Shown here: positions 8,193-39,196 of the stretch, in pieces
Layout of the letters: each line of letters begins with the position of its first letter
How positions within the stretch are numbered: the first letter of the stretch is position 1
From: Siderastrea radians
Taxonomy: Eukaryota > Cnidaria > Anthozoa > Scleractinia > Rhizangiidae
Direction of reading: 5' to 3'
DNA: 64,000 nucleotides
Assembly: GCA_964017195.1 (NCBI GenBank)
Contig: OZ024889.1
Span: 55,705,074 to 55,769,073, forward strand
Made by a program: the position numbers and the translations under genes
Notes under the pieces: model-generated
Database searches by the model: none
What the model was told of the DNA's origin: nothing
What the model saw: the letters and a program-made list of their open reading frames with translations, nothing else

Positions 8193-8245
8193 AAGTAGTA
8201 ATGTATCCCCCTCTGGGTCCCAGTTTAATGAATAAATTAATTACT

Positions 8246-8305
8246 TCCGAAGATTTGATACTATTTTCCGAAGATTTCATACTATTTTCCGAAGATAACC
8301 CTAGG
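8246..8305 (+). promoter_or_regulatory. Subterminal TTCCGAAGAT repeats
   Basis: Three copies of ttccgaagat spaced about 23 bp apart near the element terminus, mirrored at 16625-16676. More CCGAAG motifs occur at 8450-8490 and inside the element at 10355-10425. Clustered subterminal motifs often bind the mobilising protein; that role is inferred only. Confidence 0.45.
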
Positions 8306-8507
8306 TTGCCATATTGGATGTCCACCATCTAACTCTAGACGGTCATGATATTCTTTGAATGAATAAATTAATTACTTTGGAAGATTCAATACTATTTTCC
8401 CTTCCGAACCTACACGTGTGTCGAACCCTTCCGAAGAGTTTCCGATGGTATTTCGAAGATGTGCCGAAGATGTGCCGAAGTTCCGAAGAGAAGAAAAAGA
8501 AGAACTC

Positions 8508-8576
8508 ACCTGGATTCGAACCCCGAACCTCCCGCGTCTTAAGTTGCAATGCTACCAAAAGACCACATTACCGTTA
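8508..8576 (-). repeat. tRNA-like (SINE-type) block in left TIR
   Basis: On the minus strand, TGGTCTTTTGGTAGCA resembles a D-arm/A-box and GGTTCGAATCC (8512-8522 reversed) is a perfect pol III B-box, about 40 bp apart as in tRNA genes. A full cloverleaf is not evident, so a tRNA-derived SINE head or captured tRNA pseudogene is likelier than a working tRNA. Confidence 0.55.
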
Positions 8577-8811
8577 CATAGGAGAGTAAGTTAAATGGTA
8601 GTTTAGAAAGGTTTACCAAAAGGTGCAACACCAAATAGGGTAAATTTCGGTTAGATCAGTCAAGTGTGTAACACCAAATAGTGTCTTTCAATACTGATAT
8701 TTTTAAAATAGATAACGTTAAAAGCTTTAAAGGTTAAAAGTTAAAAATGACAAATCTTGTATTTTCTCGCGTCTAAATCTTAAACTACCAACTCCCAGGG
8801 TGTACTGCCCG

Positions 8812-8886
8812 GTAGTGCCGCCCGCTCGGTAGTGCCGCCCGCCCAGTAGTGCCGCCCGCTCGGTAGTGCCACCCGCCCGGTAGTGC
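8812..8886. repeat. GC-rich 19 bp tandem repeat in left TIR
   Basis: Four units of ggtagtgccgcccgcycgg in an otherwise AT-rich region, mirrored at 16037-16112. Followed by ACGCGCGT-AGCC-ACGCGCGT (8917-8936), an alternating purine-pyrimidine hairpin. Confidence 0.8.
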
Positions 8887-8984
8887 GGCCTGCCCCAGAG
8901 CCCGCTCCGCGGGTTGACGCGCGTAGCCACGCGCGTGTTGTATAGATCACGAAAAGTCGAAACAAGTCGAAAAAAAGTCCGCTG

Positions 8985-9294
8985 GAAAAAGTTGACATTT
9001 AAAAATAAACAAGTTGGAAAAAGTTGACATTTAAAAATAAACAAGTTGAAAAAGTCTACATTCAAAAATAAACAATTTGGAAAAAGTTGACATTTAAAAA
9101 TAAACAAGTTGAAAAAGTCTACATTCAAAAATAAACAAGTTGGAAAAAGTTGACATTTAAAAATAAACAAGTTGAAAAAGTCTACATTCAAAAATAAACA
9201 AGTTGGAAAAAGTTGACATTTAAAAATAAACAAGTTGAAAAAGTCTACATTCAAAAATAAACAAGTTGGAAAAAGTTGACATTTAAAAATAAAC
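8985..9294. repeat. 31-32 bp tandem repeat in left TIR
   Basis: Alternating units gttggaaaaagttgacattt-aaaaataaacaa and gttgaaaaagtctacattc-aaaaataaacaa, about ten copies. The right arm (15688-15935) has about eight. The translated LFIFKCQLFP-type peptide is not considered a real protein. Confidence 0.9.
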
Positions 9295-9410
9295 GGATCT
9301 ATAAGGGATAGATTCTTGGGTAACCCGGAGACCAGTCTGCTATCACTTTCAACAAGAATACTCCATACAAAATGGAAACAAGTTCACTGCTGTTTACAAC
9401 GGTGACGATT

Positions 9411-10302
9411 TTACTTGTCATACGGTTTGAAGCACGTGTTGCATACATAACAAGTACCAAAAAATCCAGTCAAGGTGGTGACGACATCGTACTGATGTTG
9501 GTCCTTTAACAACATTAATCGTTGGTCTTTAGAGTCACTGAAGGTTTTGACGGTATAGTTATGATCAGCATCAATAATCACAATTTGATAGTCCGACAAT
9601 GCGGTCTGAAATTGTTGAAGTTCTTTGTCACCGCATTCCCCCTCAAGTGCTCCGGCTTTTCTATGAAGACTTCGTGCTAACCATGTTTGAATTGGACGAC
9701 CTTTGCGGATGGCTTCCCAATCTCGCGGTTTTTCTATTCGAGCTTTCGCTGTGATCAGAGCCCTGGCACAAGCAAGTCCATCTTGTTCCTTGATGCGAAC
9801 AATAGATTGTTTTTTGACGCGAAGCACAGCCGGTCTGTGATGTTTGGGTTTAACACGTTTACCACTACGAACCTGACACGATCCCTGTGACCCCATACTG
9901 ACTCTGTGAAATTCTCCTAAAATCTGTGTTTTTTATGTCAGATCTTTGAACCAATCAGCATATCGATCGGAGGTCATTGTTGTTGTCTTTGCCCGAACAT
10001 GTCCTGGGCACATGCGTGATAGTCACATGAAATGTGTCTTGCGGTTCAAAGGCTTGATTAGCATATAACAATTGTTCCAGACGATTGAACATTCGATCAA
10101 TTTGTGTTTGACCAGCTCTCCATTTCCCCACGGTCATGTTCCATTTGTAGTAGACTTGTACATATTGATTGCTTTGAATGGTAAAATAAAGCCTGTCTTT
10201 ATTATCCCAGGTTGGGTCTATGGCACGTTGAATTGCTCTTTCAAATGCTTGTACTAATTCTTGCACTAAATGTTGTATACTTGCCCACTTTTTGTGGTTC
10301 AT
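9411..10302 (-). pseudogene. Broken N-terminal copy of the PolB gene
   Basis: The minus frame 9896-9411 (LVRK..; ALITAKARIEKPRDWE, GFFGTCYVCNTCF) aligns with residues 1-140 of the intact polymerase at 11398 (ALITARAKIEKSKDWE, GFFGTKYFCNTC). It then stops at CFKPYDK. The frame 10302-9955 (MNHKKWASIQHL...; DRLYFTIQSNQ) looks like the domain that precedes this in related polymerases. The two pieces are in different frames with stops between them. This is a degenerate 5' gene fragment. Its distal end lies inside the left TIR, so its last 130 bp also occurs, in sense orientation, at 15225-15355. Confidence 0.75.
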
Positions 10303-10725
10303 AGGCGTGACATTTTTATCCTGAGAGTGTCAAGATTTTTCGTAGGGACCGATAATATCCGAAGATGTCCGACGATTTCCGAAGACGTTCGAAGATTTCC
10401 AAAGACGTTCCGAAGACGTTCCGATTTATGGCCAGTTAACCGATGCTTTGATCATTTAAACGAGTATTACGATGTCTCCAGTGGCTTTCCCTACTAAAAT
10501 CCGAGATTTCGCGAAAGAACGATCATTATTTTCTCGCATTTGTACGAGTTTATTTAAATACTTTATAATTTTTTTTTTCAAAATGAGTCGGTTAAGGCTG
10601 TAAAGGCTCAGCTGTCGAGATGTTGTCTGGCAGTGAGTGAGGTTAGTTGAGTTGGTATAGTTTGTCGGGTTGTGTCGAGGTGTTACTAAAACATAACAAG
10701 GGTTATTAGACATGACTTGTCAACA
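10303..10725. other. Element interior with CCGAAGA motif cluster
   Basis: Non-coding. 10355-10425 holds six variants of ccgaaga(y)(g/t)t, the same motif as the TIR subterminal repeats. Confidence 0.5.
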
Positions 10726-11245
10726 ACACAACACCGCAACGCAACGCAACGCAACGCAACGCAACAAACAATAGACAACCGAACGCAACGCAACAACCGA
10801 ACACAACGCAACGACACACAACATCACAAAACAAAACGCAACGCAACACAACAACGACAAAAAATACCAACAGAGCACAACGCAACGCAACGCAACGCAA
10901 CACAACACAAGACAACACAGCCGGTAAAAAGGCAAAACAACGCAAGCAATACCATCCCAAACACAAGGCAAGAACAACACAAAGCAAGGCGAAGCAACAA
11001 CAAAAGACAAGAAAGAAAACGCAACACAACAGGGAAAACACAACGCAACGAAAGAGAACTAAAAACGACATCAAAACAAAACAGATACAATGCATGACAA
11101 CAGCACAACGCAACGCAACACAACACAACCGGTCCACACAACACACAGCAGATTGCAACACAACGCAACGCAACGCAATGCAACACAACCGGACGACACA
11201 ACACACAGCTAATCGCAACACAGCACAACGCAACACAACCGGCAC
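10726..11245 (+). repeat. CAACG/CAACA pentamer-rich array
   Basis: Imperfect minisatellite of acgca/acaca pentamers. All plus-strand frames of a pure CAACG repeat lack stops, so the polymerase frame stays open from the ATG at 11398 back into this array. The cysteine-rich (LRCVALRC) minus-strand frames across it are artefacts of the repeat. Confidence 0.9.
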
Positions 11246-11397
11246 AACATGACAAAACTCCAGACAGATATGAAATAGACGGTCGAGCTGGTCGATCGAC
11301 CAAAAACTCCACGGAAAAATTTGGTCAAAAAACGCTGCAGGTATACAAAGGACGCGGACATAAAATAAAAAACCGTCCGGGACACCAAGCTACAGCC

Positions 11398-14300
11398 ATG
11401 TTGAGACAGAAGAAAGATTCTGTGATCCAGATCAAAAACCAAGACGAGTTGTGTTGCTCCAGAGCCCTTATCACAGCCAGAGCCAAAATAGAAAAATCAA
11501 AAGATTGGGAACCCATCCGCAAGGGTCGTCAGATTCAAACATGGTTAGCACGAAGTCTTCATAGAAAAGCCGGAGTACCTGAGGGGGCTTGCGGCTATGA
11601 TGAGTTAGAACAATTTCAGACGTATCTGACTGGATATGAAATTGTGGTCGTCGATGCAGATCGTCGCTACAGCTGCAAAAGCTTCAAACCCCAAAGCGGT
11701 TTACCTAAATTAAGTCTATTATATTCAGATGGGCATTATGACGTCATCACGACGCTTCAGGGATTTTTTGGAACAAAGTATTTCTGCAACACCTGCCTGC
11801 AGGGTTATGACAACCTTGGTAAACATACCTGCAAACAAAACAAAAAGTTTTGCTACGCCTGCCGACAGCAAAATTGTTCTGATCATCAAGAGGCTCAAAA
11901 AACTAAACGACGTGCTCACCTCCGGTGCTCTGCTTGCAACCGCAAGTTTTTTGGAGAAAACTGCCTCCAAAACCACCTTACTATGGATCGTCGAGGACGA
12001 GAGAACAGTGAACATCCTGTATGTCGCGCTGTGCGTCGGTGTGGCTATTGTCAAAAACAGGAAAACACCGAGAAAGATATAGCACGTCACCAGTGTGGTT
12101 ACGCACGATGCCCCTCTTGCAAGGACTATGTTAACATTGACGAACACAAGTGTTTCATCCAAGTCTCGAAAAAGAGAAAAGCGGCTTCAGCCGATCGTCC
12201 AACCAAACGTCAGCGAAAAGAAGAAAACGAAGAAGAAAATGATGAATCCATGGATGAAGAAGACGATGATGAAACAGAGAGCATCATGGTCTTTTTCGAC
12301 ATCGAAGCCATGATGCTCCCTGGGGGTCATGAGCCAAACCTTTTGGTGGCCGAAACTGACCAGACCGAGGAACCAATCATCTTTCGTGGCAAAAACTGTG
12401 TGGCTGAGTTTCTTATTTGGTTAGAAGAATTAACAGAGGAGGACACGCAAAATGTAACCGTCGTAGCCCATAATTTCCAGGGTTACGACGGTTATTTCGT
12501 GGTGGAGCAGTACTATCGCACCAATCAGATTATAGAACAGCTTCGCAACGGAGCCAAATTGTTGCAAGTTCAACATGATCGAATCAGATTTATTGATTCA
12601 CTCAACTTTTTCGCCATGAAGTTGGATAATTTTCCAAAAACATTTGGCATTCAGCAACTCAAAAAAGGGTACTTTCCTCATGTATTCAATGTGCCTGCAA
12701 ACCAAAACTATGTCGGAGAGCTTCCATCGCAGGACTATTATATGCCAGAGGTTATGGGAGTCAGGGAACTTGAAGAATTTCAACAATGGCATCAAGAGCA
12801 AAGGGATCGTGGCTTTGTCTTTGACTTTCAAAAGGAACTGGTGGACTATTGCGTCAGCGACGTAAAACTGTTAAAGGCTGGCTGCCTTACCTTCAAAAAC
12901 CTGTTTGAAGAAATTGCTGGATTTAATCCATTCAGCAAAATTACCATTGCCTCGGCAGCGAATGAGGATCTTCGTCGAAATCGGTTGCAGGAAAACACGA
13001 TCGCTAGCGAACCCCTCTACGGGTGGAAAAAGAATGTAAACCAGAGCAATGCAGCGCTTCAATGGCTCGCCTGGGAGAACTATCAGCTCCGTCAACAAGT
13101 AGACCCTCAGATGTTTCTACCTCCCCGAGACTTTATTCAGCATAGTGGGAACGCAGGGGAATACAAGATCCCCGGCACCCGGTACCACGTTGACGGGTAC
13201 TGCCGAGAAAACAATACGGTGTATGAGTTTTTGGGGTGCTTTTACCACGGTTGTAAGAACTGTTTCCCCGTTCGCCACGAAAAACACAGGAGGTTGTTGG
13301 ATCGTACGTTTAGTGAAGTGCACGACTGTACATACCTGCGACTCCAAACCATACAAAACCATGGCTACGCTGTTAAAATCATGTGGGAATGTGAATGGGA
13401 GAAAATAAAAAAAGAAGATCCTGACATTCAAACCTACATTGGTACCCTGGAGATCGTGGACCCGCTGAACCCCCGGGACGCGTTCTTCGGGGGCCGCACA
13501 AACGCTGCAAAGCTGTTTTATCATACGGCAGAAGGAGAAAAGATTCATTATATAGACTACACAAGTCTATATCCTTTCGTCAATAAAACGTCGCGTTATT
13601 CTGTCGGACACCCGGAGTTTATCTATCAGCCGGAGGGAACTGACGTGTCACAGTACTTTGGACTCATAAAATCCAAGATCACAGCTCCTTACGGGATGAT
13701 CCATCCCGTATTGCCATCCCGCGAGGGGGAAAAGCTTACCTTTCCCCTTTGCAAAACATGCGCTCAACAAGAAATGAAAAAACCTATGCTTGAACGGTCA
13801 GCGGTCTGCCGACACACGGAAGAAGAAAGAAGTATGGTAGGTACTTGGTGTACCCCCGAAGTTCAAAAAGCTGTGGAGTTAGGATACCGTGTACAAAAAA
13901 TATATGAGGTGTGGCACTTCCCAGAGAGCCAAGAAGGTCTTTTCCAAGATTATGTCAACACATGGCTTAAAATTAAACAGGAGGCCTCTGGTTGGCCCGG
14001 AGGTTGTGAGACTGAGGAGCAAAAGCAAGCCTACATCCGTGAGTATGAAGCACATGAGGGCATCAAGCTCCACTACAGCAAAATCAAGTTAAACTCAGGC
14101 TTACGCTCACTGGCAAAAATGATGCTAAATGCCATGTGGGGTAAGTTTGGGCAACAGCTAAACAAAACGCAACTTAAAGTGTTTCAAGATCCTATGGAAC
14201 TTCACCGCTTCCTAAACAGCGACGCGATCGACGTCAAAAAGGTCACCGTTCAACCCAATGACCTGATCGAGGTTTTCTACATCCACACAAAAGAAGATAT

Positions 14301-14862
14301 TCCGGTTTCCCCTAACTTGAATGTATTTGTGGCCGCGTTCACGACGTGTTGGGCGCGGCTGCGCCTGTACGAGGCACTAGATCTTCTTCAAAACCGCGTC
14401 CTGTATTACGACACCGATTCGGTGCTGTCTATTGAAGATACAGAGGATCCGACACAACCACAACCGCAGTTGGGACGCTATCTCGGTGATTTCACCTCGG
14501 AACTTAAACCTGGAGACTTTATTACTGAATTTGTGTCTGGAGGACCAAAAAATTATGGGTACCAGACCCATCGCGGCAAAACGGAATGCAAAGTAAAAGG
14601 TTTCAGCCTCAAGAATGAAGGACTGGAGCAACTTAATTACAATTTGTTGAGAAACGATGTGATCAAAGAAATACAGCGCCCCAAAAGCAACCTAACCGCC
14701 AGGGAATATCAAGTGGCGAAAACTTTTCAAGTGGTGAGGGACTCCAAAAACTACAAACTGTATACTCACCCTGAGTATAAATGCTATAAACTGGTCTTCG
14801 ACAAACGTGTCGTGGATTCGACTACGTTCAACACTTATCCTTACGGATATTTCAAAGGATGA
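11398..14862 (+). CDS. Protein-primed-type family B DNA polymerase, 1154 aa
   Basis: Likely copies the element's DNA. Order: basic N-terminus; cysteine/histidine zinc-binding region at about 125-260 (FCNTC, CYACRQQNC, CSAC, CGYC, CPSC pairs); lysine-rich then acidic linker at about 260-297 with a possible nuclear signal (KKRKA, KRQRK); 3'-5' exonuclease motifs FFDIEA (about 299), HNFQGYDG (about 357) and YCVSDVKLL (about 483); a VSR-like nuclease insertion (YHVDGY, EFLGCFYHGC, about 595-615); polymerase motif A DYTSLYP (about 719), motif B KMMLNAMWGKFG (about 906) and motif C YYDTDS (about 1002). All catalytic residues are visible and no stop interrupts the frame. The frame is also open upstream of the chosen ATG (GRGHKIKNRPGHQATA just before it), so the true start may be earlier. 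The N-terminal domain kept in the antisense fragment at 9955-10302 is absent and seems replaced by the CAACG array. Confidence 0.9.
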   Translation: MLRQKKDSVIQIKNQDELCCSRALITARAKIEKSKDWEPIRKGRQIQTWLARSLHRKAGVPEGACGYDELEQFQTYLTGYEIVVVDADRRYSCKSFKPQSGLPKLSLLYSDGHYDVITTLQGFFGTKYFCNTCLQGYDNLGKHTCKQNKKFCYACRQQNCSDHQEAQKTKRRAHLRCSACNRKFFGENCLQNHLTMDRRGRENSEHPVCRAVRRCGYCQKQENTEKDIARHQCGYARCPSCKDYVNIDEHKCFIQVSKKRKAASADRPTKRQRKEENEEENDESMDEEDDDETESIMVFFDIEAMMLPGGHEPNLLVAETDQTEEPIIFRGKNCVAEFLIWLEELTEEDTQNVTVVAHNFQGYDGYFVVEQYYRTNQIIEQLRNGAKLLQVQHDRIRFIDSLNFFAMKLDNFPKTFGIQQLKKGYFPHVFNVPANQNYVGELPSQDYYMPEVMGVRELEEFQQWHQEQRDRGFVFDFQKELVDYCVSDVKLLKAGCLTFKNLFEEIAGFNPFSKITIASAANEDLRRNRLQENTIASEPLYGWKKNVNQSNAALQWLAWENYQLRQQVDPQMFLPPRDFIQHSGNAGEYKIPGTRYHVDGYCRENNTVYEFLGCFYHGCKNCFPVRHEKHRRLLDRTFSEVHDCTYLRLQTIQNHGYAVKIMWECEWEKIKKEDPDIQTYIGTLEIVDPLNPRDAFFGGRTNAAKLFYHTAEGEKIHYIDYTSLYPFVNKTSRYSVGHPEFIYQPEGTDVSQYFGLIKSKITAPYGMIHPVLPSREGEKLTFPLCKTCAQQEMKKPMLERSAVCRHTEEERSMVGTWCTPEVQKAVELGYRVQKIYEVWHFPESQEGLFQDYVNTWLKIKQEASGWPGGCETEEQKQAYIREYEAHEGIKLHYSKIKLNSGLRSLAKMMLNAMWGKFGQQLNKTQLKVFQDPMELHRFLNSDAIDVKKVTVQPNDLIEVFYIHTKEDIPVSPNLNVFVAAFTTCWARLRLYEALDLLQNRVLYYDTDSVLSIEDTEDPTQPQPQLGRYLGDFTSELKPGDFITEFVSGGPKNYGYQTHRGKTECKVKGFSLKNEGLEQLNYNLLRNDVIKEIQRPKSNLTAREYQVAKTFQVVRDSKNYKLYTHPEYKCYKLVFDKRVVDSTTFNTYPYGYFKG

Positions 14863-14887
14863 ACTGAGTACTTAGTTCTTGTCAACC

Positions 14888-15212
14888 TTTTGTGTAAATA
14901 GTTTTTCTTGTTGACCTACAATGCTAGGTTTCAAAGTAGGTTTTTGTGTAAATAGTTTTTTCTTGTTAACCTGCAATGCTAGGTTTCAGAGTAGGTTTTT
15001 GTGTAAATAGTTTTTTCTTGTTAACCTGCAATGCTAGGTTTCAGAGTAGGTTTTTGTGTAAATAGTTTTTTCTTGTTAACCTGCAATGCTAGGTTTCAAA
15101 CAAGGTTTTTGATAGATACTTAGTGCTGTAAATAGGTTTTCATGTTGGCCTTCGTTTGCTAGGTTTCAAACAAGGTTTTTGATAGAGTTTCTGTAATGTT
15201 GTAAATAGGTTA
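14888..15212 (+). repeat. 55 bp tandem repeat downstream of PolB
   Basis: Unit tttgtgtaaatagttttttc...aatgctaggtttcagagtagg with starts at 14892, 14946, 15001 and 15056 (54-55 bp period), then two diverged copies to 15212. 'gtaaataggtttttgagtaagt' at 15451-15475 is a further remnant inside the right TIR. Confidence 0.9.
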
Positions 15213-16036
15213 TGTGGCCTTTTATTCAGTGACTCTAAAGACCAACGATTAATGTTGTTAAAGGACCAACATCAGTACGATGTCGTCACCACCTTGACTG
15301 GATTTTTTGGTACTAGTTATGTATGCAACACGTGCTTCAAACCGTATGACAAGTAAAATCGTCACCGTTGTAAACAGCAGTGAACTTGTTTCCATTTTAT
15401 ATGGAGTATTCTTGTTAAAAGTGATAGCAGACTCTGTTTAATTTTGGGATAATTGTAAATAGGTTTTTGAGTAAGTTTTTTCACAACATATTTACTGTAA
15501 GATTACAAATTGTTTGTAATAAACTCGGTTGGACGATACAATACTGTGCGAACGAATTTGCATACGAGGTCCCAGAGGGAATAACACGTTTTCCGAGAAA
15601 TCAGGGTTCCAGGCGCGAGGGGTTCCTAGAATCTATCTATCAAGCGTACTGGTCTCCGGGTTACCCAAGAATCTATCCCTTATAGATCCGTTTATTTTTA
15701 AATGTCAACTTTTTCCAACTTGTTTATTTTTGAATGTAGACTTTTTCAACTTGTTTATTTTTAAATGTCAACTTTTTCCAACTTGTTTATTTTTGAATGT
15801 AGACTTTTTCAACCTGCTTATTTTTAAGTGTCAACTTTTTCCAACTTGTTTATTTTTGAATGTAGACTTTTTCAACTTGTTTATTTTTAAATGTCAACTT
15901 TTTCCAACTTGTTTATTTTTAAATGTCAACTTTTTCCAGCGGACTTTTTTTCGACTTGTTTCGACTTTTCGTGATCCATACAACACGCGCGTGGCTACGC
16001 GCGTCAACCCGCGGAGCGGGCTCTGGGGCAGGCCGC

Positions 16037-16112
16037 ACTACCGGGCGGGTGGCACTACCGAGCGGGCGGCACTACCTGGCGGGCGGCACTACCGAGCGGG
16101 CGGCACTACCGG
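16037..16112. repeat. GC-rich 19 bp tandem repeat in right TIR
   Basis: Inverted counterpart of 8812-8886: ccgggcgggtggcactaccgagcgggcggcactacc pattern, four units. Confidence 0.8.
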
Positions 16113-16349
16113 GCAGTACACCCTGGGAGTTGGTAGTTTAAGATTTAGACGCGAGAAAATACAAGATTTGTCATTTTTAACTTTTATCCTTTAAAGCTTT
16201 TAACGTTATCTATTTTAAAAATATCAGTATTGAAAGACACTATTTGGTGTTACACACTTGACTGATCTAACCGAAATTTACCCTATTTGGTGTTGCACCT
16301 TTTGGTGAACCTATCTAAACTACCATTTAACTTACTCTTCTATCTAACG

Positions 16350-16414
16350 GTGATGTGGTCTTTTGGTAGCATTGCAACTTAAGACGCGGGAGGTTCGAGG
16401 TTCGAATCCAGGTG
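16350..16414 (+). repeat. tRNA-like (SINE-type) block in right TIR
   Basis: Plus-strand copy of the block at 8508-8576: TGGTCTTTTGGTAGCA, then the B-box GGTTCGAATCC at 16399-16409. Differs from the left copy by a few bases. Confidence 0.55.
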
Positions 16415-16727
16415 ATTTCTTCTTTTTCTTATCTTCGGAACTTCGGCACATCTTCGGCACATCTTCGGAATACTATCGGAAACTCTTCGGAAGGGTTCGA
16501 CACACGTGTAGGTTCGGAAGGGAAAATAGTATTGAATCTTCCAAAGTAATTAATTTATTCATTCAAAGAATATCATGACCGTCTAGAGTTAGATGGTGGA
16601 CATCCAATATGGCAACCTAGGGTTATCTTCGGAAAATAGTATCAAATCTTCGGAAAATAGTATCAAATCTTCGGAAGTAATTAATTTATTCATTAAACTG
16701 GGACCCAGAGGGGAATACATTACTATT

Positions 16728-28154: not shown

Positions 28155-28162
28155 ACTCTTCC
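28155..28162. repeat. Target-site duplication ACTCTTCC (left)
   Basis: Identical to 39189-39196. Brackets the 11 kb element. Confidence 0.85.
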
Positions 28163-30653
28163 GGTATATACTCCATGGGAGAATGCCATGGATGCATTGG
28201 CCTTATAGGCAATACACCCCTGTATACTTCCAATACCCTTTTATACCACCCGTTTACCCTTGAATACCCCTATATACCCTTGTATACCCCTGTTTACCCT
28301 TGAATACCCCTGTATACCTTTGTCTACTCTTGTTTACCCCTGAATACCCTTATATACCCCTGATTACCCTTGTATACCCCTGAATACCCTTATATACCCC
28401 TGTTACATACCCCTGTTATATACCCCTGTTTACCCTTGACTACCCCTGTTTACCCTTGAATACTCCTGTCAGTACCTTTGACTACTCCTGTTTACCCCTG
28501 AATACCCTTATATACCCCTGTTTACCCTTGTATACCCCTGAATACCCTTATATACCCCTGATTACCCTTATATACCTCTGTTTACCCTTGTATACCCCTG
28601 TTTACCCTTGACTACCCCTGTTTACCCTTGAATACCCCTGTTTACCCTTGAATACCCTTGACTACCCCTGTTTACCCTTGACTACCCCTGTTTACCCTTG
28701 ACTACCCCTGTTTACCCTTGAATACCCTTGTATACCCCTGTTTACCCTTGACTACCCCTGTTTACCCTTGAATACCCCTGTTTACCCTTGAATACCCCTG
28801 TTTACCCTTGAATACCCGTGTATACCTTTGACTACTCCTGTTTACCCTTGAATACCCTTATATACCCCTGAATACCCTTATATAACCCTGTTTACCCTTG
28901 TATACCCCTGTTTACCCTTGACTACCCCTGTCTACCCTTGAATACCCCTGTTTACCCTTGAATACCCCTGTATACCTTTGACTACTCCTGTTTACCTTGA
29001 ATACCCTTATATACCCCTGAATACCCTTATATACCCCTGTTTACCCTTGTATACCCCTGTTTACCCTTGAATACCCCTGTTTACCCTTGAATACCCCTGT
29101 ATACCTTTGACTACTCCTGTTTACCCTTGAATACCCCTGTTTACCCTTGAATACCCCTGTATACCTTTGACTACTCCTGTTTACCCTTGAATACCCTTAT
29201 ATACCCCTGAATACCCTTATATACCCCTGTTTACCCTTGTATACCTCTGTTTACCCTTGACTACGCCTGTTTACCCTTGAATACCCCTGTTTACCCTTGA
29301 ATACCCCTGTATACCTTTGACTACTCCTGTTTACCCTTGAATACCCTTATATACCCCTGTTTACCCTTGTATACCCCTGTTTACCCTTGTATACCCCTGT
29401 TTATCCTTGAATACCCCTGTTTACCCTTGTATACCCCTGTTTACCCTTGAATACCATTGTATACCCTTGACTACCCCTGTTTACCCTTGTATACCCCTGT
29501 GTACCCTTGTATACCCCTGTTTACCCTTGAATACCCTTGTATATCCTTGAATACCCCTGTTTACCCTTGAATACCCTTGTATACCCCTGTTTACCCTTGT
29601 ATACCCGTGTTTACCCTTGAATACCCCTGTTTACCCTTGTATACCCCTGTTTACCCTTGAATACCATTGTATACCCTTGACTACCCCTGTTTACCCTTGT
29701 ATACTTTTGTGTACCCTTGTATACCCCTGTTTACCCTTGAATACCCTTGTATACCCTTGAATACCCCTGTTTACCCTTGAATACCCTTGTATACCCCTGT
29801 TTACCCTTGTATACCCCTGTTTACCCTTGTATACCCTTGTTTACCCTTGTATACCCCTGTTTACCCTTGAATACCCTTGTATACCCTTGACTACCCCTGT
29901 TTAACCTTGAATACCCTTGTATACCCTTGACTACCCCTGTTTACCCTTGAATACCCTTGTATACCCTTGAATACCCCTGTTTACCTTTGAATACCCCTGT
30001 ATACCCTTGACTACTCCTGTTTACCCTTGAATACCCTTGTATACCCCTGTTTACCCTTGTATACCCCTGTTTACTCTTGAATACCCTTATATACCCCTAT
30101 TTACCCTTGTATACCCCTGTATCCCCTTGACTACCCCTGTTTACCCTTGAATACCCCTGCATCCCCTTGACTACCCCTGTTTATCCTTGAATACCCCTGC
30201 ATACCCTTGAGTACTCCTGTTCACTCTTGAAAACCTTTATATACCCCTGTTTACCTTTCTATACCCCTGTTTATCCTTGTATACCCCTGTTTACCCTTGA
30301 ATACCCTTATATACCCCTGTTTACCCTTGTATACCCCTGTTTACTCTTGTATACCCCTCTTTACCCTTGAATACCCCTGTATACCCTTGAATACCCTTGT
30401 ATACCCTTGACTACTCCTGTTTACCCCTGTTTACGCTTGTATACCCCTGTTTACCCTTGTATACCCCTGTTTACCCTTGTATACCCCTGTTCACCCTTGA
30501 ATACCCTCGTATACCCTTGAATACCCCTGTTTACCCTTGAATACCCTTATATACCCCTGTTTACCCTTGTATACCCCTGTTTACCCTTGTATACCCCTGT
30601 TTACCCTTGTATACCCCTGTTTACCCTTATATACCCCTGTTTACCCTTGTATA
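28163..30653 (+). repeat. Left TIR: TACCCYTGNN decanucleotide satellite
   Basis: After a unique 95 bp outer end, about 240 tandem copies of a 10-mer: tacccctgtt, tacccttgaa, tacccttgta, tacccttgac and tacccttata variants alternate. It stops abruptly at 30653. TACCC and TTG are nearly invariant while the last two bases vary, giving 20-40 bp higher-order patterns. Confidence 0.95.
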
Positions 30654-31860
30654 TGAATTACGAGAGCTTGACCCAGTTGACAGAAGAGAAATTTATGCGT
30701 CTCTTAATACACAACAACAACATGTAGCTTTATTTGTAGTACTGCAAAAGCACAAAACATAACTACGAATCTAAATCAGCTGCATCAGGGCTAATTGTAA
30801 GCGATTTCTTACGTAAATCAAAACCTTAATTTTTTACTATAGGTCATCAGACTGTAAGAAATTTATGTGATGGATAATTGTTTGAAACTTGGTAAATGCA
30901 ACTCTATTTTACCATAAAACTTACTCCTAAGAGTTGAGTAACCCTCACAACAGAAAAGATAGTGGGTCTAATCTTCGTTTTCGTTACATTTACAAGTATA
31001 AATATGAATATATGAAATAGTCACATATTTGAACTGCGGATAAAGATAGAATTATGTGAAGATCATCGCAGTGAAAGAGAAGAAACCTGAAAAAATTCAG
31101 GCTTGAACGGGAATCGAACCCCATGACCTCTGCACTCTTCTATGAAGATTGAGGAGCCTGACGTGACTCTCTAGGAAGACAAACGAAAACTGGAAAATTT
31201 CACCTGAAAACCAGTGAAGTTAATCCAGTCGATTGGCGCAAAAAAAATGATAGGCTTTGTTTAACTATATTCTTGGCGGAAAGTCAAGACAGTATGTTAA
31301 CTACTCGTGAACACTAATCACTTAAGCCTGCAAAAATTTTAATTACAAAACTAACAAAGCTTTCGTTAAGGTGGCTATATTCCGCGACGACTATATACTT
31401 GAAATTGTTGAAACTCACTAATTTAGCACGAGAGTGGTCGTTCCGAAATAGGCAACCGTATTCACTATGAAAGGTGACAAACATGGCACAGAACATCAAA
31501 AAAACACCTTCAATGCAATCAATTGCTAAATTTAGTTGTCGCTAGTAGTAGTGACCTTTACGTATTACCAAGGACTACAAATCAGTTTCCATGAGATAGG
31601 TTTCTACAGTTGAATGTCATAATTAGTATGGGATTATCCCAAGCCAACTGGTTTGATACGTAAATAAAGTTTCTTACTTACTTTACTTACTTATATAATA
31701 GCCCGGCTGCACCTTCAAAGAAATAAATTGCTAAATTGAGTTGGTAATAGTGACCTTTACATATTACCAAGGAGTACATGTTAGTTTGTTAGACCTCAAG
31801 TGATCTTCCGTGATACAGGTTTTTACAGTTCAATGTCATAAAATGGCCTGTATTCCGAAA
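30654..31860. other. Element interior, non-coding left part
   Basis: No gene seen. Contains a B-box-like tRNA-derived fragment (31085-31160), a CTTA microsatellite (31671-31695) and a diverged direct duplication (31525-31625 versus 31730-31845, sharing 'agtgacctttac.tattaccaagga'). Confidence 0.5.
31085..31160 (-). repeat. Possible tRNA-derived SINE fragment
   Basis: The minus strand carries GGTTCGATTCC (31110-31120 reversed), an exact pol III B-box, followed by a short hairpin CCTGAATTTTTTCAGG. No convincing A-box was seen. Confidence 0.35.
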
Positions 31861-31861
31861 T

Positions 31862-32653
31862 TTAGCCTTTAATTTCTTCTTGTCGCTTCTTTAGGTAACT
31901 TAATTTTCCGGTGATTTGTCCACGTGACTTAAAAGATGCTGTTATTTTTAATAATTTTGCTGCGTTGCTTTGAACCACAAAGTTGTATAACTGGTGTACA
32001 TTTTCCTGGCTGGGTAGCACACTAGTTGCGTACAGGAACGATTCTGTCATGTGGAGTATGCACGTTTCAAGCCGAGTCCAGCCCTCAGTTACCTCGGGCA
32101 TATTACTTTCGTTGACGTAATGAGTTCCTCTGCGTCGCTTCAAGGAAGGTGGACTTGAAAATATCTTCTTTCTTTTCATTTTTGGTACTTCCTCTATTTT
32201 GTCGGTGTTTCTGGCCCCAAAGGTGTTTCCGCAGTTGTAGCATTTGCAGCTCTTACAACACTTTGCTTCCTTCACATAACAAGGGCATCTGGACATTTTT
32301 TTGCCCTCCACATCAACACAGGACACGAATGATGGGTCTTTGGTTTTGCGTTCTTCTCCACATCTGCACCAACGTTTGTCTTCCGCTTTCTGCAGTCCAA
32401 TTTTATTGTTGCCGCAGTGACGGCATTTGCATGTTTTCATGCATGGCTCTCCTTTTCTTACACAGGGACACCTAGAAGCTTTCCCTTCCTCATCTTTGCA
32501 GGAAAACTGGTCCCTGGACTTAACGTTGCTGCCGCAGCTGCAACCTTTTCTTCCTGGTGTGGTAATCACACATTCTGTTTCATCGTCATCCAGAAAAAAA
32601 GTTAATCCATTATTACTGCGTTGTTCTTGGCCACTACCGTAGCATGTGTGGAA
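31862..32653 (-). CDS. CXC (tesmin/TSO1-like) cysteine-rich domain exon
   Basis: Likely the C-terminal exon of the element's transposase polyprotein, with a DNA- or zinc-binding role. Two copies of a CXC repeat are visible: CSCG..CK..SRCPC..C..CKCRHCGN and CRCG..C..SRCPCYVKEAKCCKSCKCYNCGN, then KMKRKK and a tail of about 90 aa. The frame is open from 32653; a possible acceptor (GGTAG|TGG, exon start 32633) follows the intron that begins at 32992. CXC domains occur in TSO1/tesmin proteins and in several DDE transposase families. The first in-frame residues LDDDETECVITTPG read as coding, so the start is not the GTG seen later. Confidence 0.75.
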   Translation of the reverse strand, partial: FHTCYGSGQEQRSNNGLTFFLDDDETECVITTPGRKGCSCGSNVKSRDQFSCKDEEGKASRCPCVRKGEPCMKTCKCRHCGNNKIGLQKAEDKRWCRCGEERKTKDPSFVSCVDVEGKKMSRCPCYVKEAKCCKSCKCYNCGNTFGARNTDKIEEVPKMKRKKIFSSPPSLKRRRGTHYVNESNMPEVTEGWTRLETCILHMTESFLYATSVLPSQENVHQLYNFVVQSNAAKLLKITASFKSRGQITGKLSYLKKRQEEIKG

Positions 32654-32879
32654 TTACGGGTGTTGCGCATTAATGAGAGAAACGTATTTTACACCTTGAA
32701 ATAACTGGTATTTTTGTTTGTTCTTCTAGGTGTGAAACATGTCTGAGGTACAGCTTAAAAACGCATTTTCTATATGTAATATGCAAGAGAAGACCGAGGG
32801 ACGTTCCATATAGAAAAAGGATAAGTAAAAGAAGGTCCCAAAAAGTTTCTTCAGACACAAATACATCGACATAAATTGC

Positions 32880-33000
32880 ACTGACCTGTTAACACTGTGG
32901 TAGCGTCATAATGTCACTGTCATAATGTCACTGTTAACACAATGTCATAATGTCACTGTTAACACAAATACATCGACATAAATTGTACTGACCTGTTAAC
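32880..33000. repeat. 107 bp tandem duplication over a splice donor
   Basis: acaaatacatcgacataaattg(c/t)actgacctgttaacactgtgg occurs at about 32858-32900 and 32965-33007 (period 107). On the minus strand each copy carries AACAG|GTCAGT, so the OTU exon has two identical candidate 5' splice sites. Confidence 0.75.
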
Positions 33001-33482
33001 ACTGTGGTAGCGTCATACTGTCCAGCACCATAATAATGGTAGGCTACATAAATGCATCTTGTCGTTTGTGTATCATCAGGTAGAAATGGCACATAAGGGT
33101 AGTTCTCCTTTGACGTCACAACCATGATAGGGAGCTTTAGGATATGTGCTAAAACTTTCATCACTACATCGCCGAGTGACCTGTCAAATACTCCATTTTG
33201 CCTAAATTCTCTGGCTGTCGTAGCAAGCGAGTCCTGGTCTTGATTGGGAACAAATGCTAGGAATTCATCGTTTTCTTTCAAAATTTCGTCTGCAAAAAGA
33301 TTGCGCAGTGTCTTGATGTCTTCCTCTTCATTTTTCAGAAGACCAAGCGTTGAAAGATGCTGCCACACCTCTTTGTCCTTACTTGTATAGGTGCTTCTTA
33401 ACATTCTTGCTACGCTGCGAAATGCGCAGTCACCGTCCTTAGCTGTACCGTCGATCTTCAGTTTAAATCCAGCCAGGAGCAC
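32993..33482 (-). CDS. OTU-like cysteine protease domain exon
   Basis: The frame MLLAGFKLKIDGTAKDGDCAFRSVARM contains the OTU catalytic signature DGDCAFRS (Asp and nucleophile Cys present). At the C-terminal end the family's GPGHYDA-type catalytic His motif reads GAGQYDAT, so the catalytic His is replaced by Gln (codon CAG). The coding exon probably ends at 32993 (AACAG|GTCAGT); reading continues to a stop at 32934 if unspliced. It overlaps the transposase frame by 25 bp in another frame. In related proteins the two would be continuous, so a frameshift near 33500 is likely. OTU proteases cleave ubiquitin-like chains; here the domain belongs to a transposon protein and its activity is doubtful. 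Confidence 0.75.
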
Positions 33483-35521
33483 GTTCTGTGTTCCTGTATT
33501 ACGGGATTGCTTTCGTCATTATCGATGTCGTTATCATATAAAATATGATGCACATTTAAACTGTTAGGTTTGTCTGCAATAAGCAAAAGATCATCAGGGT
33601 GAAATGATCTATTAACATTGTCTTTTGATAGACTTGTCATTATCTGCATAGCCGAAATTGCGGCGTTGAGTACAGATTCTGCTACAGTTTCAGAGCAAAC
33701 ATCTTCCATGGACTCTGCAATCAGCAAATAGTGTAGGCCGTTATCGGTTGCGGTGTGCGCTGTCGTTCCGTTGTCGCATACATTTTCCACAGTATTGGGA
33801 GAGGCTTCTGTTTTAAATGCCGACCAACTCGAACTTAAGTCATTATTGGTAGGGAAAGGATTTCTTTTTGCAGGCTTGACGCATTTTATTTTAGAGTTAC
33901 ACTGGTGCTGCAAACAAGGAGAAGCTTTGCTGCTATAACTGTAAAAAAGCATCGTTAGTAGTGCAACAGCTAATTCCACTGTGATTCTTGTCGCCCCTGT
34001 TAAAAGTGATCTATTTAACAGTCGATGTAACTGTTCGTTCCGTTCAGTTCCAAATCCGGGTGGTATCCCGGAAAGGCATCCTTTTTTAATGTGCACGCGG
34101 ATGTTTTCAATTTGTTTAAATGTGGCCTCTGTTAAACACGAAGAAGGAACATTTCTCCACCTTTCAATTAGGCGATCTAGGTTGGCTTCAATTTCAAGTG
34201 GATTCGGAGTAACCTTCAGCCGAGTTTCCCCAAGATCGGTGCTCTGTCTGAATATTAATCCAAATTCCTTTCCAAATTGGTGTCTAAGAAGGGACTGACC
34301 AGTTTCCAATGTTCTTAGTACGCGCTGGCATGCGTGAAAAATGTCCAATTTAATTTGAGCGTTGGGGAAAACAGATTGATACTTGTTTCTGTTCTTACAA
34401 CAGTCGTCGATAGCTATCATAGATATTGAATCTTTTTGTCTACTCACTCTCTCCTTTAATCTGAACAGAAGATCGTCGATTTCGTGGAATGCTGTCGACT
34501 TTGTCAACCTCCAATCCAGAATTTGACCGTTGTCGTTTAAAATGATGAACAAGTTGTTAAACTTCGTAAGAAATTTCTGTTCTTCTCCCTCGGTAACAAC
34601 TCCTATATTTTTACTTATTTTGAACGTGTGGTCGCATGATATAGATGGTGTGGTCGCATGATATAGATGTTGCTGAAATCCCTAACATTTCACTAGCGTA
34701 GAACCTTTGTACAACTTGAAATCGTCCAAAAGTATCCTCGTCAGTTGATCATTGCTAGGAAATGCAAACAAGTCGTTTGAGTAGAAGTCTTCAAAATCAA
34801 ACACTTCACCTTCCGCTAGTCCATCTCTTACGGCAGCGTTGAAAATTTCTCCAAGTCTTGTGTGGTGTTCATGATTGAGAGCTCCAATTCCTTCACTGAT
34901 TTTCAAAAAGTTCACACCCTGTGTGATCGAGTTCTTTATGTACAAAATAAGCCGTTTAGAGCATCCACTTCTTTGGTATAACTTCACGGGAAATACCTCT
35001 CTCACTGTTTCGGGTAGTCCATTTAGTAGATCAGGAGAAGCTGCAAAAAGCTTATGCGTATTTCTTCCTTGCGCACACAGGTAAATTCTCTGCACAAGAA
35101 TAATATTTCCAAAAAGATCATAAATTAGCCTCGGTCGCTTTTCTTTGTTTCCGTTAAGATTTTTTGTCCATTGCCAGGGTCTCAAAACCACATCAGTGTG
35201 AATAGGACATTTCATAGTGCAGACAGCATACTGTTCCTGAGGACTCCATAGTAACACTTTGGGTAGTAAAAAGCCTCCTTGTGTTTTGCCTGCCACTGAA
35301 GCTGGAGGATGGACGATATCATAGAACTGCGCGCTTGCGGGATCTTTGTCAAACATATCGGTCAATTTCTGTATGTACTTCGCGACTTCCTTGGCATTAT
35401 TTAAGTTGCATCCACTGCTCAGCCGCGACCCTAGCGCCAGTAGGGCAAACAATACTAAAATGCTCTGTTTGAATCCCGTAACGAAGCGTTTTCTTCTTAC
35501 TTTTACATTGCTCAAACTCAA
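33458..35521 (-). pseudogene. DDE-type transposase with one in-frame TAG
   Basis: Two long frames (35521-34682 and 34552-33458) are in the same phase and separated by only one TAG (34682-34684). The N-terminal part carries Cys pairs (VCTMKCPIHTD, YLCAQG), like the zinc-containing DUF6729-type region of some transposases. The core holds a first Asp in SISCDHTFKISKNIG, a second in DDCCKNRNKYQ/KLDIFHACQRV, and a likely catalytic Glu in GFGTERNEQLHRLLN. The stop lies in a roughly 30 nt out-of-frame stretch between an apparent 1 nt deletion (near 34703) and a 22 bp tandem duplication (34626-34669). The two lesions cancel in frame, so only the TAG remains. Superfamily uncertain. Confidence 0.75.
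34626..34669. repeat. 22 bp tandem duplication in the transposase
   Basis: gtgtggtcgcatgatatagatg occurs twice in direct succession (34626-34647 and 34648-34669). On the minus strand it covers the first-Asp motif region. Confidence 0.9.
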
Positions 35522-36229
35522 ATTCTTTTGTTGTCAAAAACGGGTCGAGACGCTTTGGGAATCTTTACGGGACAGCTCTGCTTTGTAAATCCCGAGTATG
35601 GTGGTGTTCACGAATCTCCTACGAGTGCGACCTTGCAATAGACTGCAAAAATTTGGCTCTTCTGGTAGCAGTTTTTCCAGATATTTTGAAAACCTTTCTC
35701 TAGTCCGACGGAAGCTATTTGTGCTTTTCAGCGTGAAGCCCTTACTGCGACTGATTTGTAAAAGATAAAGGTCTATTCACAACAGTAAAAGGGCGAGAGA
35801 GAATACCTCTGGTACCCAGGGTACCAGAAACCACAACATACCATAAAACCTCGGAAAAACCGCAACGTTGTGCAAAATTCACAACTGCGTTTACAAATAC
35901 CAGGCAAATATCAAACCGTTAAAACAAAATGCCAAAAAAACCGGCCCTGAGAAAAGCCTTAAAATGCCTCATAATAGTTCTGGATGTAGCGTATTCAAGA
36001 ATTGCCAAACCAACATGTCTAAGAATACCGAATTCTTTTTAGACACTAATTATACAGAAATGTCGGAATGCCATATATGTCATGATCACCTCAGTTTTCG
36101 CAACGCGTTCCAATTCTTACCGTATTATCTTTTGGGCGTGTTTCCCGTCAGCCGCTGAAAAATAAAAACTGCCTTGCAAACGCCACATCAAACGTTGAAA
36201 AAATGTGCACTTGTTTGCTCACGTATGTG
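35522..36229. other. Element interior, non-coding right part
   Basis: Upstream of the transposase frame; may hold its promoter and 5' exon. A short frame (35868-36158, plus) has no recognisable motif. Confidence 0.4.
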
Positions 36230-39188
36230 TTTTCATAAGAATATGAAAGTATACAGTGGTCTGAGTGCTATACAGAGCTCTCAAAGTATACAACGGCTAT
36301 TCGGGGATATAACAGGGTACATAGTGCTATTCAAGAATATACGGGGGTATTCATTGGTATAAAAAAGGTATTCGAGAGTATACGGTGGTATATAGGGGTA
36401 TTTAAGGGTATACAAGGTTATGCAAGGGTATACAAGGGTACTCAAGGATATTCAAGGGTATACAAGGGTAATACAAGGAGTATTCAAGGGTATACAGGGG
36501 TATTCAAGGGTATAAAAGAGTATTCCACAGTATACAAAGGTATACAGGGGTATTCAACAATATTCAAGGGTAAACAGGGAGATACACGGGTATACAAGGG
36601 TAATCAAGGGTATAAGGGGGTATTCAAGGGTATTCATGGGTATACTAGGGTACTCTATGGTATATTATACAGAAGTATTCAAGGATTATCAAGAGTATAA
36701 AGTAGTATACAGGGGTATTCCTAAGAATACAAGGGTATTCAAGTGTATACAATTGTATTCAGTAGTATACAAGTGTAAACAAGGGTAATCAAGGGTATTC
36801 AAGGGTATACAAGGGTATACAGTGGTATTCAAGGGTATACAAGGGTAGCCAGGGGTATTCAAGGGTGTACGAGGGTATTCAGGGGTATCCAAGGGTGTAC
36901 GAGGGTATTTAGGGGTATACGAGGGTATTCAGGTGTATTTAAGGGTGTGCTAGTATTCAATGGTATACAAGGGTATACAAGGGTATTTAGGGGTATTTAA
37001 GGGTATACAAGGGTAAACAGGGGTATACAAGGGTATTCAAGGGTAAACAGGGGTAGTCAAGGGTATACATAGGTATCCAAGGTCGTGCAGGAGTAGTCAA
37101 GGGTATTAAAGGGTATTCAAGGGTATACAAGAGTATACCGGGGTATTCAAGGGCATACGAGGGTAATCATGGGTAGTCAAGGGTATTCAAGGATATTCAA
37201 GAGTATACAGGGGTATGCAGGGATAAAGAGGGGTATTCAAGGTAATAAAAGGGTATTCAAGGGTATACAGGGGTAGTCAAGGGTTACAAAGATATTCAAG
37301 AGTATACAGGGGTATTCAAGGGTACATAAGGGTATTCAAGTGTATTCAAGAGTATACTGTGGTTTACAGGGTACTCAAGGGTATACAAGGGTATTCAACG
37401 GTATATAGGGGAAGTCAAGGGGATACAGGGGTATACAAGGGTAAACAGGGGTATGTAAGGGTAAACAGGGGTATACAAGGGTATTCAAGGGTAAACAGGG
37501 GTATATAGGGGTATTCAAGGGTACACAGTGGTAGTCAAGGGTATACAGGGGTATTCAAGGGTAAACAAGGATTTACAAGGGTAAACAGGGGCAGTCAAGG
37601 GTATACAGGGGTATTCAAGGGTAAACAGGGGTATACAAGGGTAAACAGGGGTAGTCAAGAGTAAACAGGGGTATACAAGGGTAAACAGGGGTATGCAAGG
37701 GTATTCAAGGGTAAACAGGGGTATTCAAGGGTAAACAGGGGTATGCAAGGGTAAACAGGGGTATATAAGGGTATTCAGGGGTATATAAGGGTATTCAAGG
37801 GTAAACAGGAGTAGTCAAAGGTATACAGGGGTATTCAAGGGTAAACAGGGGTATACAAGGGTATTCAAGGGTAAACAGGGGTAGTCAAGGGTATACAGGG
37901 GTATTCAAGGATAAACAAGGGTTTTCAAGGGTAAACAGGGGTAGTCAAGGGTATACAGGGGTATTCAAGGGTAAACAGGGGTAGTCAAGGGTAAACAGGG
38001 GTATACAAGGGTAAACAGGGGTATACAAGGGTATTCAAGGGTAAACAGGGGTATTCAAGGGTAAACAGGGGTAGTCAAGGGTAAACAGGGGTATGCAAGG
38101 GTAAACAGGGGTATATAAGGGTATTCAATAGTAAACAGGAGTAGTCAAAGGTATACAGGGGTATTCAAGGGTAAACAGGGGTATACAAGGGTAAACAGGG
38201 GTATACAAGGGTAAACAGGGGTATACAAGGGTAAACAGGGGTATATAAGGGTATTCAAGGGTAAACAGGGGTAAGTCAAGGGTATACAGGGGTATTCAAG
38301 GGTAAACAGGGGTATTCAAGGGTAAACAGGGGTATGTAAGGGTATTCAAGGGTAAACAGGGGTATACAAGGGTAAACAGGGGTATACAAGGGTATTCAAG
38401 GGTAAACAGGGGTAGTCAAGGGTATACAGGGGTATTCAAGGGTAAACAGGGGTATTCAAGGGTAAACAGGGGTATTCAAGGGTAAACAGGGATAGTCAAG
38501 GGTAAACAGGGGTAGTCAAGGGTAAACAGGGGTAGTCAAGGGTAAACAGGGGTATACAAGGGTAAACAGGGGTATATAAGGGTATTCAGGGGTATACAGG
38601 GGTAAACAGGGGTATATAAGGGTATTCAAGGGTAAACAGGAGTAGTCAAGGGTATACAGGGGTATTCAAGGGTAAAAAGGGGTATACAAGGGTATTCAAG
38701 GGTATACAGGGGTATTCAAGGGTAAACAGGGGTATTCAAGGGTAAACAGGGGTAGTCAAGGGTAAACAGGGGTATACAAGGGTAAACAGGGGTATTCAAG
38801 GGTAAACAGGGGTAGCCAAGGGTAAACAGGGATATACAAGGGTAAACAGGGGTGTATAAGGGTATTCAGGAGTAAACAGGAGTAGTCAAAGAGGTATACA
38901 GGGGTATTCAAGGGTAAACAGGGGTATACAAGGGTAAACAGGGGTATATAAGGGTATTCAGGGGTATACAAGGGTAAACAGGGGTATATAAGGGTATTCA
39001 AGGGTAAACAGGAGTAGTCAAAGGTATACAGGGGTATTCAAGGGTAAACAGGGGTATACAAGGGTATTCAAGGGTATACAGGGGTATTCAAGGGTAAACG
39101 GGTGGTATAAAAGGGTATTGGAAGTATACAGGGGTGTATTGCCTATATGGCCAATGCATCCATGGCATTCTCCCATGGAGTATATACC
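36230..39188 (-). repeat. Right TIR: inverted decanucleotide satellite
   Basis: Reverse-orientation array of the same 10-mer (NNCARGGGTA), about 290 copies. The inner kilobase (36230-37000) is strongly degenerate and grades into unique DNA. From about 37400 outward it is homogeneous (gtattcaagggtaaacaggg). It ends in the unique 95 bp shared with the left terminus. Confidence 0.95.
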
Positions 39189-39196
39189 ACTCTTCC
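39189..39196. repeat. Target-site duplication ACTCTTCC (right)
   Basis: Identical to 28155-28162. Confidence 0.85.

Follow-up and report, generated by a model that had tools for sequence, protein, structure and literature searches.

A probable Mutator-like transposon family with foldback-type satellite arms in the coral Siderastrea radians

We analysed a window of 64,000 nucleotides from the coral Siderastrea radians (GenBank assembly GCA_964017195.1, contig OZ024889.1, forward strand, positions 55,705,074 to 55,769,073). Within it, an element of 11,026 bp (window positions 28163-39188) carries transposase coding sequence between two long arrays of short tandem repeats. This element is very probably a recently transposed copy of a DNA transposon family with foldback-type ends, probably of the Mutator-like element (MULE)/IS256 clan of DDE transposases. 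Inverted tips with distinct target duplications in several copies identify a DNA transposon, and the long inverted repeats, in which a short unique tip is followed mostly by tandem repeats, are those of a foldback-type element.

Results

Structure of the element

Immediately outside its inverted tips the element is flanked by ACTCTTCC, and the plus strand of the window contains this 8-mer at no positions other than 28155 and 39189. The tip sequence GGTATATACTCCATGGGAGA is present once per strand in the window (28163-28182 and 39169-39188), and the inverted ends are near-identical, with a single mismatch at base 41 across the first 109 bp. Behind the tips lie arrays of 2,420 and 2,732 bp in mirror orientation, which together make up 47% of the element. 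The best description of the repeat is a dimer of 20 bp that joins two 10 bp units, and the array copies match each other at 77-79%. Judged by eye, a degenerate repeat continues inward from the right array to about 36240. The original prediction, made from the sequence alone, had proposed 8 bp direct repeats outside perfect 95 bp inverted ends and about 2.5 and 2.9 kb of a 10 bp satellite in mirror orientation, amounting to about half of the element. The direct repeats, the mirror arrays and the overall share of satellite were borne out, while the ends fall short of perfect and the lengths and unit of the arrays had to be corrected. All frames lie on the minus strand, as anticipated for the transposase, OTU and CXC coding sequence. 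The features are as follows.

28155..28162, no strand: left target site duplication, 8 bp (ACTCTTCC; window search and genome-wide duplication control)
28163..28233, plus: left unique tip of the terminal inverted repeat, 71 bp, starting with GGTATATACTCCATGGGAGA
28234..30653, plus: left satellite arm on the 3' side of the genes, about 126 copies of the 20 bp dimer
30654..31861, no strand: spacer from the left array to the CXC frame
31862..32653, minus: frame with MSL2-type CXC domain, 263 residues (Pfam)
32934..33515, minus: frame with OTU-like cysteine protease domain, 193 residues (Pfam)
33458..34681, minus: DDE transposase frame, 407 residues, RNase H-like fold, putative triad D17, D92/D93, E216 (alignment and model)
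34626..34669, no strand: 22 bp tandem duplication, close to where the transposase frame begins
34682..35533, minus: DUF6729-like frame, 283 residues, in frame with the transposase, one stop codon between
35534..35776, minus: short upstream open frame, 80 residues, matched in the genomic copies C5a, C11a and partly C13b
36387..39118, minus: right satellite arm on the 5' side of the genes, about 138 dimer copies, mirror orientation
39119..39188, minus: right unique tip of the terminal inverted repeat
39189..39196, no strand: right target site duplication, 8 bp (ACTCTTCC; window search)

Copies in the host genome

The genome searched spans 439 contigs with a total of 805 Mb. An exact search with the 20 bp tip gave 42 occurrences, and a search with a 28 bp tip and up to three mismatches gave 75, of which 18 are the exact tip of a sister family (family B; the window copy belongs to family A); reversed-pattern controls gave 0 in both searches. 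Fifty of the 75 tips were read as 25 inverted pairs, window copy included, and 13 as unpaired tips; the pairs C8c and C14c were read in the outer 10 kb per side only. Family A tips bound 18 pairs, 15 with 10 bp satellite arrays and three array-free, and family B tips bound seven. The 8 bp flanks are identical in 18 pairs and agree at 7/8 in four and at 2/8 in three. When left and right flanks of different copies were combined as a control, agreement of at least 7/8 was seen in 0 of 600 combinations, against 22 of 25 true pairs. The 13 unpaired tips are of family A and are followed by the family A satellite in eight cases, by another repeat in one (L036) and by no array in four. All four protein parts were found at 92-100% identity in two of the 22 other copies searched, C5a and C11a. 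The recurrence of the unique ends, in inverted pairs with different 8 bp duplications and, in these two copies, with the same gene set, agrees with what the original prediction had expected of further copies.

The arms are part of the mobile unit and change faster than the middle

C5a lies on another contig with opposite gene orientation and a different duplication. Across the full 11 kb, 11 substitutions and a single 20 bp repeat unit are all that separate it from the window copy, and because of this near-identity we conclude that middle and arms moved together, and recently. In the family as a whole, one pair has 99.93% identical middles. In the array-bearing family A pairs, the arrays are enclosed by the duplication (7/8 or 8/8) in 13 of 15 cases, which, together with the C5a copy, upholds the earlier claim of a single transposon with satellite arms as part of the unit.

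The arms change faster than the middle. Between C1a and C5b the middles differ by 0.81% and the arms by 7.1% and 8.9%, the arm values being upper bounds since repeat alignment overestimates substitutions; arm lengths differ by up to about 730 bp, through 10 bp steps and blocks of 217-421 bp. Opposite arms share 2-47% of their 30-mers in 14 family A copies. Among five family B copies, 31-87% are shared between copies on the same side and 0-6% between opposite sides of one element. General homogenisation of the arms within one element was accordingly rejected for these five copies, and it is variable in the 14 family A copies. The left arm of C11a is closer to its own right arm than to the arms of other copies, suggesting that one arm was overwritten by the other; perhaps this also happened in C14b.

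Genes and transposase

Pfam matches comprise DUF6729, an ISL3/MULE-like DDE transposase, OTU (E 3.5e-8) and MSL2-CXC (E 1.9e-6), the latter two above the Pfam cut-off and the former two below theirs. Of the 114 homologues of the transposase frame that were found, 29 were aligned with it; three of the 114 carry a species name (the corals Oculina patagonica and Pocillopora), which points to a stony coral as the probable host. D113 is invariant in the alignment, and D17, D92, D93 and E216 are conserved at 90% or more. In the structural model (predicted local distance difference test score, pLDDT, 71.5), the elements follow an RNase H-like order and E216 sits on a helix; the putative triad was assigned from pattern and model. 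The best match among solved structures is ISCth4 (PDB 6xgx, 6xg8) at 15% identity, which we take to be a member of the IS256 family. ISCth4 is a bacterial insertion sequence and is not known to have OTU/CXC genes or array ends. The stop codon between the DUF6729 and transposase frames lies beside the 22 bp tandem duplication and is common to the window copy and C5a. The frame of C11a is split elsewhere, and in the public relative P0001 the region is read through without a stop. The window copy may have moved with transposase supplied in trans.

Non-autonomous and minimal copies

Five non-autonomous copies (C1a, C5b, C7a, C4a and C3b, which together occupy loci L001-L002, L006, L007-L008, L012 and L013) have a common middle that is 94-99% identical over shared stretches, C3b holding its last part only. 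Each has its own duplication (7/8 in C4a). The middle of C1a (L001) contains reverse transcriptase coding sequence (RVT_1, E 6e-32), and frames matching it are present in C5b, C7a and C4a. This coding sequence in the common middle points to a retrotransposon segment carried as cargo, and a DNA transposon thus appears to be spreading part of a retrotransposon. Another short middle is common to C1b, C4b and C13a. Reverse transcriptase frames were also seen in C3a and C14b (L005 2257-3450, minus, and L026 4842-6260, plus; RVT_1, E 3e-10 and 1e-33), where they probably represent nested retrotransposon insertions.

At the lower end of the size range, three tiny palindromic elements consist of family A tips without arrays: C10a (86 bp), C13m (111 bp) and C5m (111 bp), located at L014 5001-5086, L028 501-611 and L029 501-611, with duplications of 8/8, 7/8 and 8/8.

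A sister family with a different satellite

The family B tip (GGTATATACTTCATGGGTGAATGCCACG) is identical to that of family A at 25 of 28 bases, and at 32 of 38 over a longer tip. Five of its seven pairs have a perfect 8 bp duplication, one has 7/8 and one has none. The arms consist of a 9 bp satellite (ACTTGGCTA type) with higher periods of 27 and 45 bp, and the family A repeat was absent from the family B arms. The family B copy C8b contains DUF6729, transposase, OTU and CXC parts at 45-64% identity and C1c the transposase, OTU and CXC parts at 35-54%; the other four family B copies searched gave no protein matches. Comparison of the window copy with C8b shows saturation at synonymous sites and a nonsynonymous divergence (dN) of 0.27-0.51, from which we infer that the genes have been under selection since the two families split. 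In C8b, the 9 bp array keeps an open frame that continues into the DUF6729/transposase frame, the N-terminal half of which is missing (L020 4889-6043, minus).

A 30-mer of the family B satellite gave 184 matches, and all seven loci among the best 100 of these have a family B tip. At six of the seven the tip stands beside or bounds the array. At the seventh (C3:37.22 Mb) it lies 5.7 kb away, with none within 1.5 kb on the other side. Two of these tips had been missed by the ungapped tip search.

Behind the unpaired A-type tip of L036 (G000:C3:24547409-24548369) stands a third repeat, GGTGTTCCGG-like, with units of 10-11 bp and a length of 134 bp. A search with three exact tip words found no second tip in a further 5 kb. 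As evidence of a new satellite this repeat is a hint only. A sulfotransferase-like frame follows it (Sulfotransfer_4, E 1.4e-38), and either gene capture or insertion just upstream of a host gene is possible.

A second element-like structure in the window

At 8196-16725 of the window, inverted repeats of 1.06 kb, 97% complementary, enclose an open frame of 1254 residues with a type B DNA polymerase domain (E 6e-47). These repeats hold several short tandem arrays (units of 11, 17, 21 and 32/63 bp), and the structure presumably resembles a Polinton/Maverick-type element.

Discussion

Relation to known elements

The 8 bp duplication fits the MULE/IS256 range of about 8-10 bp, and IS256 is related to MULEs (PMC5225508). 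In mosquito MULEs, the tips are joined by subterminal tandem repeats of 9-15 bp, the duplications measure 8-9 bp, and derivatives with foreign middles occur. Muta1, Muta5 and other MULEs of Aedes aegypti resemble the coral element in duplication length and in having non-autonomous derivatives whose ends are kept while the middle is foreign. However, the ends of Muta1 comprise nine repeat copies in 145 bp, compared with more than 120 dimers in 2.4-2.7 kb here, and the Aedes transposases carry a FLYWCH or SWIM finger, the available text making no mention of an OTU/CXC gene (PMC5225508). An N-terminal FLYWCH finger is the mark of the Phantom subclass, and FLYWCH gave no match at E 0.1 in the five window frames or in the families matched by 30 homologue rows, several of which are fragments. 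Tm1 of root-knot nematodes, a Mutator/foldback element, likewise has short tip motifs followed by a variable number of tandem repeats of about 14 bp, and one of its groups encodes a MULE transposase. It differs in its 9 bp duplications and Phantom-type transposase with FLYWCH finger, and it is described as inactive and senescent, in contrast to the pair with near-identical middles in the coral family (PMC3169594). Tetris, a foldback element of Drosophila virilis, links transposon ends to satellites in that the tandem repeats within its inverted ends also form kilobase satellite-like arrays; its repeat is about 220 bp long, no conserved coding sequence was found in it, and free-standing arrays have been demonstrated for Tetris but not for the coral element (PMC4079207). 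The inverted ends of Galileo of Drosophila are long and variable and contain tandem repeats in some subfamilies; the two ends gain and lose repeats independently, and there is exchange between copies, but Galileo has a P-element transposase, 7 bp duplications and repeats of about 210 bp in at most three copies (PMC3573991).

The premise of the original prediction that transposons normally lack repeat-array ends is therefore not supported, since foldback-type elements have them and a good many such elements are MULEs (Muta1 and other mosquito MULEs, PMC5225508; Tm1, PMC3169594; Tetris, PMC4079207). The design of foldback ends built of tandem repeats is known, and the coral element is an extreme case of it. 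In the literature searched, with subscription papers mostly outside the search, we found no account of the family, in keeping with the suggestion that it may be undescribed, and no paper on foldback elements in corals. As far as the accounts of Muta1, Tm1 and Tetris could be consulted, what is new are arms of more than 100 units on a transposase-coding element, the set of genes, and the existence of a sister family whose genes are homologous and whose tips are similar but whose 9 bp arrays are unrelated.

Alternative explanations

It could be argued that the arms do not belong to the mobile unit but are satellite of the host, which either received two insertions of a short-ended transposon or was captured from outside. 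Indeed, the array breaks off after a short distance at the single ends L034, L037 and L042, and the unpaired tips that lack a family A array would fit. We nevertheless regard this as very improbable: it is already largely refuted by C5a, in which both arms are near-unchanged, and is further opposed by the duplications outside the arrays and by the family B tip at all seven satellite loci among the 100 matches considered. Assignment to the KDZ (Zisupton) superfamily instead of to MULEs is improbable, though less so. Pfam includes a KDZ model, and KDZ was not among the Pfam matches of the 30 homologue rows at E 0.1; the best fold, like the weak matches, favours ISL3/MULE/IS256. In its favour, Zisupton elements, including the Dileera element Zisupton-1_PGr, make 8 bp duplications (PMC12730594).

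A reading with somewhat better prospects, which we still consider unlikely, is that the family repeatedly makes new short satellites behind its conserved tips, by slippage during post-transposition repair or by tip-primed amplification. It draws on the 10 bp and 9 bp units of different sequence in families with homologous genes and largely identical tips, on the A/B gene divergence at synonymous saturation, and on the third repeat at L036. Yet rapid turnover from one ancestor could also yield two satellites, the third repeat is short, without a second tip nearby and next to the sulfotransferase-like frame, and the analysis yielded no free-standing satellite derived from the element. Slightly less likely again is the wider proposal that entirely new short satellites (of 10 bp, 9 bp and perhaps the third of 10-11 bp) are gained time after time behind the conserved tips of this lineage, grow into long mirror arms and are carried around the genome by transposition, with selection acting on the presence of an array and not on its sequence. 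Where the original prediction proposed that the element may carry or generate satellite, carriage is established, while generation is at most suggested by the different satellite of the sister family and the short repeat of L036.

Several observations weigh against the interpretation we prefer, a recently transposed MULE/IS256-clan element with foldback-type ends. Three of the 25 pairs lack a duplication, and five of the 13 unpaired tips lack a family A array. The tiny elements speak against the arrays being needed, unless they arose by later internal deletions. All Pfam transposase matches lie under the curated cut-offs, so that the clan assignment rests mainly on the fold. Given the in-frame stop in the window copy and C5a and the split in C11a, the frame is visibly uninterrupted in no copy read, and movement may be in trans. 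Between the window copy and C11a, the ratio of dN to synonymous divergence (dS) is 0.21-1.69 over five pieces with few changes, and no selection is visible within family A. Finally, local alignment of the 40 bp tips of both families with array stretches of the window copy and C9b gave p values of at least 0.09 against 300 single-base shuffles in 16 of 16 comparisons. Amplification of tip sequence into secondary binding sites, an idea raised for Galileo and Tetris, was rejected as the origin of the array, the units of which match the tip no better than they match shuffled tips.

A possible mechanism

For the foldback-type MULE/IS256-clan element we envisage that a transposase of the encoded kind would recognise the conserved tip of about 38 bp, and that the element would be cut out and pasted elsewhere with an 8 bp duplication being made. 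The arms would be copied along and would grow or shrink through gain and loss of repeats, about 10 or 20 bp at a time and sometimes more, by slippage or unequal exchange, and occasionally one arm may be overwritten by the other arm of the element. At its most speculative, this model might have the arms kept as docking sites for the transposase or the CXC protein. A G-quadruplex (G4) consensus covers 65-80% of the G-rich strand in the three family A arms tested (0 in shuffles) and is absent (0) from both arms of the one family B copy tested; G-quadruplex formation was therefore rejected as a shared function of the arms.

Significance

How short satellites originate and are scattered is an old question. 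Here, sister families with conserved genes, similar tips and different arrays are found, with copies of differing relative age, in one genome, so that the middle of the element can serve to date the birth, growth and exchange of arrays. If new satellites do arise repeatedly behind the conserved tips, this lineage would be a nursery for satellite DNA.

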